Shown here in pieces: positions 30,770 to 35,706 of a stretch of DNA of 64,000 nucleotides; within the stretch, counting starts at the first letter, position 1; each line of letters starts with the position of its first letter. The position numbers and the translations under genes are program-made. The notes under the pieces were generated by a model. That model was not told where the DNA came from and did no database searches. It saw nothing but the letters and a program-made list of their open reading frames with translations. Location: assembly GCF_029910095.1 (NCBI RefSeq), contig NZ_CP094526.1, forward strand, positions 1,674,001 through 1,738,000, in the 5' to 3' direction. Source of the DNA: Bradyrhizobium sp. ISRA464. GTDB lineage: Bacteria > Pseudomonadota > Alphaproteobacteria > Rhizobiales > Xanthobacteraceae.

Positions 30770-31260
30770 GGTCTGTCCTCGCTCTGCTTAAGCTATTGAC
30801 CGAAGCGGCGTGAGGCGCGGAACGTCTTCCATTCGCCCGCGGCCGCGCTGATGTTTGTTTTGCCAAGATGTTGATGAGCCAAACTGTGATGCGCCAAGGT
30901 CTGCGCTGTGTCCCAAGCACTCCTCTCGCTTGTCGGCGCCTTGCCGGCGCAGCATGGTGAAGGCGGCAACGCTATCAGACGTTGCGTGACTTCACAGACG
31001 GGCATTTTGCATTGGCCGTTTGTCAAAACCGGGGCCGCGCCAGATGACGTGTGTTGTTTCATCGATACAACTACGCTCGGATCGGCCGGGCGGTATTCCG
31101 GCGGTACCCGGGGAGAGGCAAGGGGGCGGGAGGCCGGGAAGGGGCCTTCGGCGCCGAAATGGCCCCAGCGGGCCGCAAAGCATGGCGACAAAACCCCCGC
31201 CGCAATGCACAAGGCATCTTGCGGCAGGCCGATTTCAAGGCTATTGCCTTGCCTCTCAAC
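30770..31260. other. Gene-free region upstream of tRNA-Glu
   Basis: 491 bases with no credible gene. It should contain the promoters for the Mo-hydroxylase operon (minus) and the tRNA (plus). A GTTGT/ACAAC dyad sits near 31050, and no boxes can be assigned surely. Confidence 0.45.
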
Positions 31261-31335
31261 GCTCCCTTCGTCTAGCGGTTAGGACGCGGCCCTCTCAAGG
31301 CTGAAACAGGGGTTCGATTCCCCTAGGGAGCGCCA
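31261..31335 (+). tRNA. tRNA-Glu (anticodon CUC)
   Basis: A 75-base cloverleaf with encoded CCA. The acceptor stem GCTCCCT pairs with AGGGAGC. The anticodon loop in GCCCTCTCAAGGC reads CTC, giving Glu (GAG codons). The T arm is GGGGTTCGATTCCCC. Its 3' end is the integration site of the small island that follows; the last 15 bases recur at 34351-34365. Confidence 0.95.
31321..31335 (+). repeat. attL core (tRNA-Glu 3' end)
   Basis: CCCTAGGGAGCGCCA, the last 15 bases of the tRNA including CCA, repeated exactly at 34351-34365. Confidence 0.85.
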
Positions 31336-31362
31336 GCCGGGCTCTCCGCGCGTTGATCTCTC

Positions 31363-31947
31363 TCAGCTTTTTGGCGGTTTCCCCAAACCTGCAGAACGGG
31401 TTTGGGGCATTCTGTTCGCCTTGTGGTCCTCAAGTTTCAGGATCGCGCGGCGTCCACCGCGACGCCGATCGGCCTCACGCGTGTAGCGTTCAGCTTCAGC
31501 AAGAGTGAGATGGCCCATCGCTGCCATGATCTCGTGTGCAGTCGCGCCAGCATCGGCGAGGAGGCGTCCAAACGTCTTGCGTAGACCGTGCGGTCGGCAG
31601 TCGAGCGGCAGGCCAGCCTCATCCATCGCGTCGCGCATCCAGCCGCTGAAGCCGTCGACGGTGAATGGCTTGCCGTATTCCGTCGTGAGAATGCAAACGT
31701 GTTTTCGTGGCAGTGCGTCCAGCGCCTCCTTAAGCGACATCGCCTTCTCAACGACAACGGGGACGCCAGTCTTGCGCCGGGTGTATTCAAAGTCATCGGC
31801 ATCGGCCTGCACCCAAGTGGTCAGGTGCGTATCGCCGCGTGCTGTGCCGACATTCAGCATCAGCTCGTAGGCCGCGCGCTGTTTGGTGCCGAATTTCCAG
31901 CGCTTCAAAAAGGCGCCCCATCGACGTGTGGTGTGGCATGACGGCAT
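31363..31947 (-). pseudogene. Tyrosine integrase, C-terminal catalytic part only
   Basis: 194 codons, against the roughly 350-420 usual for such integrases. The catalytic pieces are there: Arg in GTARGDTH, CRPHGLRKTFGRLLAD (His-x-x-Arg), MAAMGHLTLAEAERYTREAD (His and Tyr). RRWGAFLKRWKFGTK would normally be internal, and the arm- and core-binding domains before it are gone. The cut lies where the HNH gene starts on the other strand, so the deletion joined these two. It lies 28 bases from the tRNA, as expected for a tRNA-targeting integrase. Confidence 0.85.
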
Positions 31948-32647
31948 GCCCGATGAGCAGCCGCGTGAATGCCAATACTGCGGAACTAGGTTCGTGCCTG
32001 ACGTTTCGCGGGAGATCGCAATGCCCGGAGCGCCGCCATCCGTAGTCTTCGCACATCGGCGGGCGCATTGTTCGAAGTACTGCGATTATACAATTGCTGG
32101 CTTGCGTCCAGTCGAGGTGGACCGAACCGCTATTTTCGAACGAGATGGATATCGCTGCTATCTGTGCGGTCAGGAAACCCCTCAACAATTGCGCAGCTTG
32201 GGTTATGTGCCCAATGGCCCCAGTGTTGACCACGTTGTGCCCCGTCACTTAGGGACGAATGACCCCGACAATCTGCGTTGTTGTTGTAAACGATGCAATT
32301 TGGAAAAAGGACCTTCGCTAATTTGGGAGAAACTGGCGCATCGCTTGAACGCCGGCTACGACGCCTTCTCCACCGTGTTGCTAGAGATCCTTCCGCGACA
32401 GCCCACTCTTTCGGAATTAGTTTTACTTTGGCGCGAAATGGTGATCTCTGGCTGCGCTGCGAAGCACATCGATCATCGTCATGTCGGCAATCACAGGAGA
32501 GACCGCCGAGCCTTGCAGAATTCCCCGTTGGAGAACGCCGCGCTGGTCGTCAACGTTTGCTTCGCCCGCTATTGTTTCTGTACAGCTAGAAACAGACGGG
32601 CGAACTGGCACCCTACTCCGATCAATGATACGATAGCCCTGTTGTAA
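31946..32647 (+). CDS. HNH endonuclease domain protein (3' end altered)
   Basis: A 233-codon frame. Cysteine pairs CQYC (9-12) and a later H-C-x-x-x-C (41-46) look like an N-terminal zinc knuckle. The HNH core is ERDGYRCYLC (Cys71/Cys74), PSVDHVVPRHLG (Asp95-His96), then DPDNLRCCCKRCNLEKG (Asn109, Asn118). HNH enzymes cut DNA in mobile, restriction or retron-type systems. Residues after about 165 are simply the opposite strand of the reverse-transcriptase gene, so the native C-terminus seems lost at a junction near 32.43 kb. The start is MPDEQPRECQ; earlier codons are antisense to the integrase. Confidence 0.75.
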   Translation: MPDEQPRECQYCGTRFVPDVSREIAMPGAPPSVVFAHRRAHCSKYCDYTIAGLRPVEVDRTAIFERDGYRCYLCGQETPQQLRSLGYVPNGPSVDHVVPRHLGTNDPDNLRCCCKRCNLEKGPSLIWEKLAHRLNAGYDAFSTVLLEILPRQPTLSELVLLWREMVISGCAAKHIDHRHVGNHRRDRRALQNSPLENAALVVNVCFARYCFCTARNRRANWHPTPINDTIALL

Positions 32648-33328
32648 TACAACGCCATCTATTATCGCCCGGGACAGAGGCAATCTGCTCCTCAACCATT
32701 CGACCGAGATAGAGCCATAGCAATCTCTGACGTCGAATTGTATGAACCGCGTTCCGGCTGGAGCGGAGTTCATACCTTTGAGGAGTTCTTCGCAGGCAGC
32801 CAGTTGTCCGCGCGTCAGATCGAAACCTAACGGGCGGATGCCTGCAAAGGGCTGGAGGGCATACAAAACAATTTCCTGTTTCGCAGCACCAAACTCATCG
32901 AAATCGTAGACAATTCTAAAGCCGCCTCTGGCCTTGGGCCGATACAGCCGAACGGCTGTAGCTGGCACACTCAGGCACGCCAGTCGGTTGGCAACTTGCC
33001 ATACTCGTTCAAAAGATGGAGACGCAGACCTTTGGCTGCGGCTTGCTGACCGCCTGCTCTTTTTCCGTAGGGCTACGTAAGCAGCAAATACGCGAACCGC
33101 CGTGCTACGCAACAACGAGCGCTGCTCACGCCTTACAATACGTTCACTCCGCTCTCTTAAACGCCTGATCTTGATCCGCTGGCGCTTCAACACGCGTTTG
33201 CCGTGCAGTCGCAACTCGGTCTGCTCGGCACCCAGCGCGCAAGCGCGCTTGATCGTCTCTAGACGTAGGGCAACAGTTCTGGGGCGCCGAAGCGCACCCA
33301 AAGTTGAATGGTGCACCAATATGAACAT
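32423..33328 (-). pseudogene. Reverse transcriptase, truncated before the catalytic Y-x-D-D motif
   Basis: The frame has RT motif 1-2-like RPKARGGFRIVYDF, motif A IQFDVRDCYGSISVEW (catalytic Asp near 32733), and motif B GILQGSAVSPVIADMTMIDV (about 32524-32465). It stops soon after, with no Y-x-D-D (motif C) in any frame beyond. The first ~110 residues are very Arg-rich and may be a poorly conserved extension. The 5' end overlaps the start of the divergent protease gene by a few bases, and the start codon is uncertain (ATG 33328 or a later GTG). No retron N-A-x-x-H motif is visible. The RT class is not assignable. Confidence 0.75.
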
Positions 33329-34220
33329 TTCTGATGCTGCTTTGAAATGTGTTGCCTTCATAGGCGTAATGAAGGATGGGCGGTTTCAACCGCGCGCCAC
33401 CGGATTTTTTGTCGACTGGATTGAGGACCAGATCAGCCTCACGCATCTGGTTACTGCCGAGCACGTCATAGCCGGGTTAGTTAGGACCAACAACGATATC
33501 TTCGTGCGCGTCAATCTACTAAGTGATGGAGTTGCTGAGTTTCAGGTAGATGCGACCGAGTTTCGATTTCATCCAAACAATGCACAGGAAGCCGCAGATG
33601 TTGCCGTAATGCCTTTCAGAGCGAACGCGCTTCAAGATGATCAAGGCAATGTGGTCGGCATCGATACTGTTTCTATTGCACTGAACGAAAAAGAAGATGG
33701 GTTTTTACCCCAAGAAGAATTCAAAAGACGCCATATGGGGCGCGGCGGGCAGATATCTATAATCGGTCTGTTTCGCAGTCATTTTGGACAAAAGCGTAAT
33801 GTGCCAATTGTGCGTGTCGGGAACATCTCAATGCTGCCTGGCGAGCCTGTGTCCACCCGCGCCGGCGATATCAAAGCCTACCTAGTAGAGGCCCGTTCTG
33901 TGGGAGGTCTAAGTGGCTCTCCCGTTTTTGCGAACGCGGATCAAGGGTTTGAATTGTCGAATGCCCTCTCAAAAAGGACGGTGTGTTTGCAGCCGATGGC
34001 GCTGCTCGGGATGGTTCACGGCCATTTCGATGTGAAGAATTTAAACGAAGATGTGGTTACCGAAGACGACCGGTTGAGAGACGGGGTACATACCGGCATT
34101 GCTATCGTTATTCCTGTCGAAAAAATTGTGGAGACCATCAATCATCCTGACTTGATAGAATTGAGAAAGAAGGCCGTTGAAAATTTGCGCAGCGCGGGCT
34201 CTGACACCTCGTCTCAGTAG
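33321..34220 (+). CDS. Trypsin-like serine protease domain protein
   Basis: A 299-residue soluble protein with a full trypsin-like triad pattern: His in LTHLVTAEHVIAG (about 49), Asp in EAADVAVMPF (about 95), and Ser in SVGGLSGSPVF (about 196; G-x-S-G-S-P). No signal peptide or membrane helix is seen, so it should be cytoplasmic, like the protease effectors of bacterial conflict systems rather than DegP. It is divergent from the reverse-transcriptase remnant with overlapping 5' ends, and the two were probably one functional unit. Codon use is relaxed and AT-richer than the chromosome. Confidence 0.82.
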   Translation: MNISDAALKCVAFIGVMKDGRFQPRATGFFVDWIEDQISLTHLVTAEHVIAGLVRTNNDIFVRVNLLSDGVAEFQVDATEFRFHPNNAQEAADVAVMPFRANALQDDQGNVVGIDTVSIALNEKEDGFLPQEEFKRRHMGRGGQISIIGLFRSHFGQKRNVPIVRVGNISMLPGEPVSTRAGDIKAYLVEARSVGGLSGSPVFANADQGFELSNALSKRTVCLQPMALLGMVHGHFDVKNLNEDVVTEDDRLRDGVHTGIAIVIPVEKIVETINHPDLIELRKKAVENLRSAGSDTSSQ

Positions 34221-34350
34221 ACGAGCGGCACCGCAATCGGCACTATTAAAGGCGGTTTGGGGTACTTTGCTGAAAAGCATTGGAAATCAATGGAGGTCGA
34301 TTTCCCCAAACTTTCAGTTAAGTTATTGACACAAGTAGCATTCCGCAGTT

Positions 34351-34365
34351 CCCTAGGGAGCGCCA
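34351..34365 (+). repeat. attR core of tRNA-Glu island
   Basis: CCCTAGGGAGCGCCA, an exact copy of the tRNA-Glu 3' end at 31321-31335. Sequence after it returns to chromosomal composition. Confidence 0.85.
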
Positions 34366-34410
34366 CTTCATCCCAAAATGCTGGTGTCCCGCACCGCCGC
34401 CTGCGCGTCC

Positions 34411-35706
34411 TCACGCCGCGGCGAGCACCGGCTGCGCCGGCCGCCGGGCGATCATCAGCGACAGGACGGCCGCGACGATGCCGGTCAAGCCTGCGATCAT
34501 GAAGGCTTGCAGATAATCGCCCTGCGCGGAGCGCATGAAGCCGGCGAAGAACGCAGCGCTAGCGGCGCCGAGCTGATGGCCGGCGACCACCCAGCCGAAC
34601 ACCAGCGGCGCGTTCTTGTCGCCGAATGCTTCATTGGCGATGCGCACCGTGGGCGGCACGGTCGCGATCCAGTCGAGACCATAGAACACCGCGAACACCG
34701 ACAGGCTGACAAGCGAGAAATCCGAGTAGGGCAGGTAGATCAGCGACAGGCCGCGCAGTCCGTAATAGAAGAACAGCAACTTTCGCGGATCGAAACGGTC
34801 GGTGAGCCAGCCGGAGAGCGTGGTGCCGAACAGGTCGAAGAACCCCATCAGCGCCAGCAGGCTCGCCGCCTGCACCTCAACGATGCCATGGTCGCCGCAG
34901 AACGCGATCAGGTGGGTGCCGACCAGACCGTTGGTGGTGAAGCCGCAGATGAAGAAGGTGGCGAACAGGAACCAGAACGCCCGCGTCGTCGCGGCGCGCG
35001 CGAGGTTGCTGAATGCGGCGGTGAACGGATTGCCTTGCGCGGGCGACGCCGGCTGATCGTCATTGAGGCTGCCGAACGAGCGCAGGCCGACCGACGCCGG
35101 CCGCTCGGGCACCAGGAAATAGACCAGCGGAATCAGCACCGCGCAGCACGCCGCCACCGTCAGCACCACCGGCCTCCAGCCGCCCCATGCCACCAGCGCC
35201 GCAAGGCCCGGCATGAAGATCAGCGTGCCGGTCGCGGTGCTCGCCGTCAAAAGCCCCATCACGAGGCCCCGATTGGTGGTGAACCAGCGATTGACGATGG
35301 TGGCGCCGAGCACGTTGGCGACCGCGCCCGAGCCGATGCCGGAGAGCAGCCCCCATGTCAGGAACAGTTGCCACGGCGCGGTCATGAAAGTGCTGGCGCC
35401 GGTCGACGCCGCCATCAGCATGAGTGCGCCCAGCACCGTGCGGCGGATGCCGAAGCGCTGCATCACGGCCGCAGCGAATGGGCCCGCGAGGCCGTAGAGG
35501 AAGATGCCGATCGCAGCGGACGACGAGATCACGCCGACATTCCAGCCGAACGCCTGTTGCAGCGGCAGCATCAGCACGCCCGGCGTCGCGCGCAGGCCCG
35601 CCGAAGCAAGCAGCGCAAGGAAGATCACGGCGACGACGACAAACGCGTAGTTCTGGCCGAACGGCCGTCTCGGCACGGGGGCGGGTTGAAGCGGGGTGCT
35701 GGTCAT
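34411..35706 (-). CDS. MFS transporter
   Basis: A 431-residue inner-membrane carrier with 12 predicted helices. Family marks: an N-terminal helix FVVVAVIFLALLASAGLRA, GIFLYGLAGPFAAAVMQRFG, GSGAVANVLGATIVNRWF between helices 4 and 5, and DLFGTTLSGWLTDRFDPRKL, the mid-protein copy of motif A (G-x-L-x-D-R-x-x-x-R). It resembles monocarboxylate/oxalate-type MFS proteins. The substrate is unknown. It is divergent from a TetR gene with an operator dyad touching its start codon, so it is probably repressed by that protein. Confidence 0.9.
   Translation of the reverse strand: MTSTPLQPAPVPRRPFGQNYAFVVVAVIFLALLASAGLRATPGVLMLPLQQAFGWNVGVISSSAAIGIFLYGLAGPFAAAVMQRFGIRRTVLGALMLMAASTGASTFMTAPWQLFLTWGLLSGIGSGAVANVLGATIVNRWFTTNRGLVMGLLTASTATGTLIFMPGLAALVAWGGWRPVVLTVAACCAVLIPLVYFLVPERPASVGLRSFGSLNDDQPASPAQGNPFTAAFSNLARAATTRAFWFLFATFFICGFTTNGLVGTHLIAFCGDHGIVEVQAASLLALMGFFDLFGTTLSGWLTDRFDPRKLLFFYYGLRGLSLIYLPYSDFSLVSLSVFAVFYGLDWIATVPPTVRIANEAFGDKNAPLVFGWVVAGHQLGAASAAFFAGFMRSAQGDYLQAFMIAGLTGIVAAVLSLMIARRPAQPVLAAA

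Follow-up and report, generated by a model that had tools for sequence, protein, structure and literature searches.

The window analyzed here is a 64-kb stretch of the genome of Bradyrhizobium sp. ISRA464, which is 8.46 Mb long and assembled as one contig. Within it, a tRNA-Glu gene is followed by a compact segment that holds part of a tyrosine integrase gene, a phage-type HNH endonuclease gene, part of a reverse transcriptase (RT) gene and an intact serine protease gene (Table 1). The original prediction had taken this segment for the scarred remains of a defense island at the tRNA and had suggested that intact relatives may be an undescribed RT-protease system.

Table 1. Features of the island in the window and of loci that carry relatives of its RT
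Feature	Position	Strand	Basis or content
tRNA-Glu (CTC), integration target	31261..31335	+	left attachment core formed by its last 15 bases (31321-31335)
Tyrosine integrase, C-terminal fragment, 194 aa	31363..31947	-	PF00589; N-terminal half missing
Arm-type-like repeats, left end	31375..31414	.	TTTCCCCAAAC and its reverse complement GTTTGGGG
Phage-type HNH endonuclease gene	31949..32440	+	Pfam and phage HNH matches; C terminus undefined
RT remnant (260 residues, motifs A and B)	32450..33229	-	87% identity to P0002 residues 51-319 (tblastn)
Seam between RT remnant and protease gene	33230..33320	.	shared N-terminal RT residues absent
Intact 299-aa single-domain serine protease, predicted HtrA fold, PDC-S45-like	33321..34220	+	triad H48, D93, S200
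Right island end with TTTCCCCAAAC-type repeats	34252..34350	.	repeat families; match in G146
Right attachment core	34351..34365	+	identical to the tRNA-Glu 3' end
G547 (YADN)			tRNA-Ser, DUF6538 tyrosine integrase, one intervening gene, RT, HsdM 7 kb further
G556 (HCDN)			tRNA-Ala, DUF6538 integrase, convergent RT, then resolvase and Vsr
G882 (L081, YVDD)			tRNA-Ser, DUF6538 integrase, small gene, weakly helix-turn-helix-like gene, RT, HNH_2, large Eco57I-type methylase
LADD relatives	L097:7305-8708 (G336), L098:9238-10326 (G401)		neighbors differ

Borders and genes of the tRNA-Glu island

Two exact copies of the 15-bp sequence CCCTAGGGAGCGCCA are present in the window, at 31321 and 34351 on the same strand, in agreement with the predicted repeat of the tRNA-Glu 3' end at 34351-34365; from base composition, such a match is expected by chance about 2e-5 times in 5 kb. 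The tRNA-Glu 3' end and its copy are separated by 3.03 kb, and the G+C content, 0.65-0.67 in the flanking DNA, falls to 0.45-0.61 in the island interior. The locus thus shows what defines a tRNA-targeted island of the tyrosine integrase type, namely a second copy of the tRNA 3' end at the opposite border and an integrase gene, here truncated, enclosed by the two copies, and the description of the segment as scarred island remains holds. Copies of TTTCCCCAAAC or its complement lie near both island ends within the repeat families D3 and D8, whose pairs are 81-85% identical, and these end repeats look like arm-type integrase sites. The 99 bases at 34252-34350 are 71% identical to L019:4207-4305 in genome G146, a site ~6 kb from that genome's own fragment of the same RT.

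The integrase is broken, as had been predicted, and retains only the catalytic half of PF00589 (E = 8e-12) and positions 278-461 of the 611 in the phrog_1 integrase profile (2.9e-13). Matches to the Pfam families HNH_5 (E = 1e-7) and HNH (E = 3e-6) support the predicted HNH gene, but its end is undefined because the frame continues to 32647, antisense to the RT. Records matching the HNH protein number 55 for phages (8 listed) and one for plasmids.

The RT remnant, the protease and their adjacency

The RT open reading frame (ORF; 32423-33361, minus strand) matches part of the RVT_1 domain with E = 1.4e-5 and 25.3 bits, below the Pfam cut-off of 29.6. Its closest relative, P0002, is a 466-residue metagenome protein, to which the similarity (87%) extends from about residue 51-60 to 319. 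The predicted motifs A and B are both present, but the first ~44 and last 8 residues of the ORF have no counterpart in RT relatives and motif C is lost. Upstream of about 33229-33256, the N-terminal residues common to P0002, P0124, P0125 and P0126 are absent, and downstream of 32450, the C-terminal ~150 residues that include motif C are missing. Because of the loss of motif C, the window RT is predicted to be a dead remnant, and its being cut at both ends suggests that the island genes meet at seams. The same genome encodes another RT (G000:C1:8406742-8407341, L055), which has a canonical YADD motif and is group II-like by appearance.

The protease start was placed at 33321 after P0004 from Bradyrhizobium sp. 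Pha-3, the closest protease, with which it shares 92% identity. Given its 299 residues and the 296 of P0004, the protease alone among the island genes looks full length. It matches Trypsin_2 with E = 2e-4 and 22.7 bits (Pfam cut-off 27.6) and covers positions 9-279 of the 293 in the PADLOC PDC-S45 profile (E = 4e-15). The full His/Asp/Ser pattern of the original prediction was confirmed, as His48, Asp93 and Ser200 are invariant across 24 aligned proteases (that of the window and 23 chosen from 120 listed of 627 found), and prediction and alignment together point to an HtrA fold with this triad. No export signal was seen in the window protein on inspection by eye, as had been proposed, but distant relatives (P0099 and ORFs in L024 and L025) have N-terminal stretches that look membrane- or signal-like by eye; the window protease is probably cytosolic. 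Several homologues (P0007, P0012, P0099 and others) end in an NPTHREDFxxLLGAAARKP-type tail at the C terminus, which the window protease lacks.

The neighbors of the protease, read by eye, vary across six genomes of the genus and one metagenome-assembled genome. In G259 (L022:8729-9836), a fragment of the protease N terminus lies within or next to an ORF encoding a CAP12-type TIR domain, near a tRNA-Glu(TTC). With such differing neighbors and a fragment near another tRNA-Glu, the protease looks like mobile cargo and not like a partner of the RT. Searches of plasmids and phages returned no protease homologues, four loci on viral contigs carry the protease (their neighbors were checked for the window-type RT only), and a search of genome contigs gave one relative, L002. 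The named organisms among close protein relatives are Bradyrhizobium, both for the protease (P0004) and for the RT (P0124 and P0127).

The survey of the genus covered 265 genomes, of which 10 carry the protease and 3 the RT, and the two occur together only in the genome of the window: none of the 9 other protease genomes has the RT and neither of the 2 other RT genomes has the protease. A tblastn search with P0002, P0124 and P0126 over the fetched loci detected the RT only in those of the window, G146 and G020, and none in the loci fetched around the protease. We considered whether the two genes could be what is left of an undescribed anti-phage system of two genes, with the protease triggered by the activity of the RT or by its cDNA. 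They are divergent neighbors within one island, some defense-associated RT (DRT) systems contain trypsin-like proteases according to passages of PMC12799240, and Trypsin_2 is named in part of PMC8934634 among the domains occasionally near RT genes. Against this stand the absence of an RT N terminus on the very side that faces the protease, the lack of any metallo-β-lactamase (MBL) nuclease in the scanned island ORFs and the failure to find homologues of the two as neighbors in any other genome or locus searched. With the RT cut at both ends and no second neighboring case, we rejected the pair; the system of the original prediction is not borne out, we regard it as highly improbable, and the adjacency is probably accidental.

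Taken together, these data lead us, with good confidence, to regard the segment as the remnant of a collapsed tRNA-Glu island in which an intact protease and a dead RT from a separate family are accidental neighbors. An integrative island would have entered the tRNA-Glu 3' end by means of its tyrosine integrase and later collapsed, deletions and recombination leaving an integrase stump, the HNH gene, the middle of the RT and the protease as the one intact cargo gene. The RT and the protease would then have become neighbors through deletions and not as a system, and the protease, by itself or together with a partner from the host, may act as a regulated serine protease with a possible role in defense. 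Some points weigh against this interpretation. No clean empty site was seen: in G238 and G031, similarity to the window sets in immediately to the right of the repeat, at 34403 and 34413, and neither gave a match to the left of it in the 16-17 kb fetched. The RT and protease genes are divergent and <100 bp apart, and a true pair could look alike. The adjacency survey, moreover, covers neither the contig of the closest RT (P0002) nor the Pha-3 genome of the closest protease (P0004). The island probably carried defense genes; this part of the original prediction is plausible given the PDC-S45 match and the RT relatives found beside Gabija, restriction and repair genes, although a joint RT-protease system is unsupported. 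A tempting RT-protease system is thereby removed as probably false, and the RT family is the better lead.

An RT family with an altered motif C

A profile search yielded nine proteins, including that of the window, and the other eight extend to motif C, where every one of them has [HY]SDN. Distant intact relatives among 397 genomes of the order have YADN (G547) and HCDN (G556). An alignment of six full-length members of this xxDN type shows no variation at the Asp of motif A, the QG of motif B or the D and N of motif C, and the Asn aligns with the second Asp of YADD in the group II intron RTs 6me0 and 6ar1. The family is 12-16% identical to RTs of group II introns, G2L4 and diversity-generating retroelements (DGRs), and a structure predicted for P0126 from seven sequences (mean pLDDT 79.6) has an RT fold near those of DGR, group II and G2L4 RTs. 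PADLOC models for DRTs and retrons gave only partial, weak matches, with a maximum of 57 bits for any xxDN member, and the six intact members reached no cut-off of the NCBIfam RT models. Among open-licence papers, we found none on an RT with a YxDN, YSDN, HSDN, HCDN or YADN motif and none that connects DUF6538 with reverse transcriptase; the family is apparently undescribed in the profile libraries and open-licence literature searched. We know of no natural bacterial RT described with Asn at the second position of motif C. A GDN motif is functional in the polymerases of negative-strand RNA viruses.

Intact relatives of the window RT would form a separate family with this altered motif, adjoining an integrase in two distant cases (G547 and G556). 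The YGDD relative in G1001 lies 2.3 kb from an integrase, and in P0129, the antisense of an integrase end (46% over 37 residues to that of the window) runs straight into the C-terminal half of an RT. In G146, a complete GajA-GajB pair (Gabija; E = 4e-223 and 7e-186; L019:6445-9565) lies 450 bp away from the C-terminal RT half. In G020, the RT gene is broken late by a frame change and ends ~80 bp before a degenerate tRNA-like sequence that scores 24.3 bits, under the gathering score. An integrase lies within 1.5 kb of the RT in three of four test loci and at 0 of 34 other RT loci, an enrichment that is only suggestive, as four of the six integrases behind the profile come from the test loci themselves. 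The association that recurs among these few loci is that of an integrase and an RT in tRNA islands with defense, restriction or repair genes.

What such proteins do may be approached from these surroundings. Our leading guess, held tentatively, is that the family is a DRT-like defense system, an RT with an RNA or partner, placed first after the integrase of tRNA islands, with the protease as a second, unrelated cargo gene. The islands of G547, G556 and G882 each combine a tRNA, a DUF6538 integrase and the RT with HsdM, Vsr or an Eco57I-type methylase, and the RT stump of G146 lies close to GajA-GajB. A role of this kind, read from sequence, is countered by the lack of any full-length match to DRT or retron models, by the NCBIfam cut-offs left unreached, by the tRNAs that are the only Rfam RNA in five loci and by the motif C change, which may lower activity. 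Integrase-linked and RNA-binding roles are its rivals. The xxDN proteins could be non-catalytic or weakly active polymerases that bind RNA in integrase control or island maintenance, as the change of the second motif C Asp to Asn in eight close records and two distant members, and the closeness of RT and integrase in G547 and G556, would allow. However, none of the six intact members varies at the Asp of motif A, the first Asp of motif C or the QG of motif B, which suggests conserved catalysis, and the viral polymerases noted above are active with GDN; we consider such a role unlikely.

The xxDN proteins may represent an undescribed RT lineage of ~425-545 residues, encoded directly behind the DUF6538 integrases of tRNA islands with restriction or repair genes, and a new class of defense or mobility RT with altered metal chemistry, a proposal to which we give somewhat less than an even chance. 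Several findings speak against it. The same integrase profile detected no integrase in the loci of G020 (L018, 19 kb) and G146 (L019, 20 kb) or near the LADD relatives in G336 and G401. Relatives with YVDD (G882), YGDD (G1001) and LADD (G336) share the xxDN side of a branch supported at 95/94, and xxDN may have arisen more than once: the best tree needs at least two changes and a single origin is not rejected (p-AU 0.24), although the tree has 18 rows and long branches, so that evolutionary inference from it is weak. No further xxDN protein appeared among the typed loci of the class and phylum searches. If active, the xxDN RTs would test how far the YxDD rule bends, and G547 and G556 are defined loci for testing roles in defense or mobility.

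The wider searches scored at most four candidates per genome, so members may have been missed. In the order, seven of 397 genomes had matches at E ≤ 1e-3: the window's own genome (the RT fragment and the YADD RT), two with xxDN, two with LADD and two with YADD. The class gave 17 of 385 genomes at E ≤ 1e-8 and the phylum 13 of 393 at E ≤ 1e-12. Of 19 further loci, 15 have DD and 4 no readable motif C type; a second set of 17 comprises 12 with DD, G556 itself and 4 without a readable type, 3 of which are common to the first set. P0002 had no match in phages and plasmids. P0125, P0130 and P0131 matched plasmid proteins at low identity, mostly annotated group II intron RTs among the matches listed (20 of 68, 20 of 1189 and 20 of 1053, respectively), and five phage records, also at low identity. 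On viral contigs, neither A2 nor P0126 had a match and A5 had three weak ones, of which the one typed is an RT with YADD. The RT at L060:7536-9173, on a viral contig, has YADD and a C-terminal part that we take, by eye, to be TIR-like.

Comparison with known systems

A group II intron maturase was rejected for the RT, as TIGR04416 scores 15.6 bits with the window fragment and 21-57 with the six intact xxDN members, against 300. No intron RNA was found in L018, L019, L056, L057 or L081 at the gathering score, or at 30800-34800 of the window up to E 0.1. The only Rfam matches in five RT loci were tRNAs, with no retron msr-msd RNA there or at 30800-34800 of the window; to our knowledge, many retron RNAs may lie outside Rfam.

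For several RT members, the profile of UG17 (DRT10) ranks among the better ones of the DRT set, with partial matches of 22-55 bits, and passages of PMC12632851 report a tyrosine recombinase in two of three tested DRT10 systems. DRT10 is described there by a YVDD motif, a SLATT protein and a non-coding RNA, whereas the RT family has xxDN, and Pfam detected no SLATT in the neighbor genes scanned, which were part of the ORFs. A UG17/DRT10 assignment was rejected, as matches are partial only, the best being 54.7 bits for the YVDD relative in G882 and 41 bits for P0125 and P0130.

Unlike HtrA/DegS and MamO, the window protease has no PDZ domain (Pfam, 299 residues) and no signal peptide by eye. It matches most of the profile of PDC-S45, an unvalidated PADLOC candidate for which we know of no experimental test. 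The PDC families are presented in part of PMC12988326 as the product of a guilt-by-embedding scan, most awaiting validation. In nuclease-protease pairs, as passages of PMC12799240 describe them, the protease is fused to a defense enzyme and lies behind an MBL nuclease gene, whereas the window protease is single-domain; such a pair was rejected, no MBL match being found in the five island ORFs among six scanned. Hachiman, AVAST, Lamassu and DRT nuclease-protease pairs nevertheless present, as here, a trypsin-like protease in a defense context.

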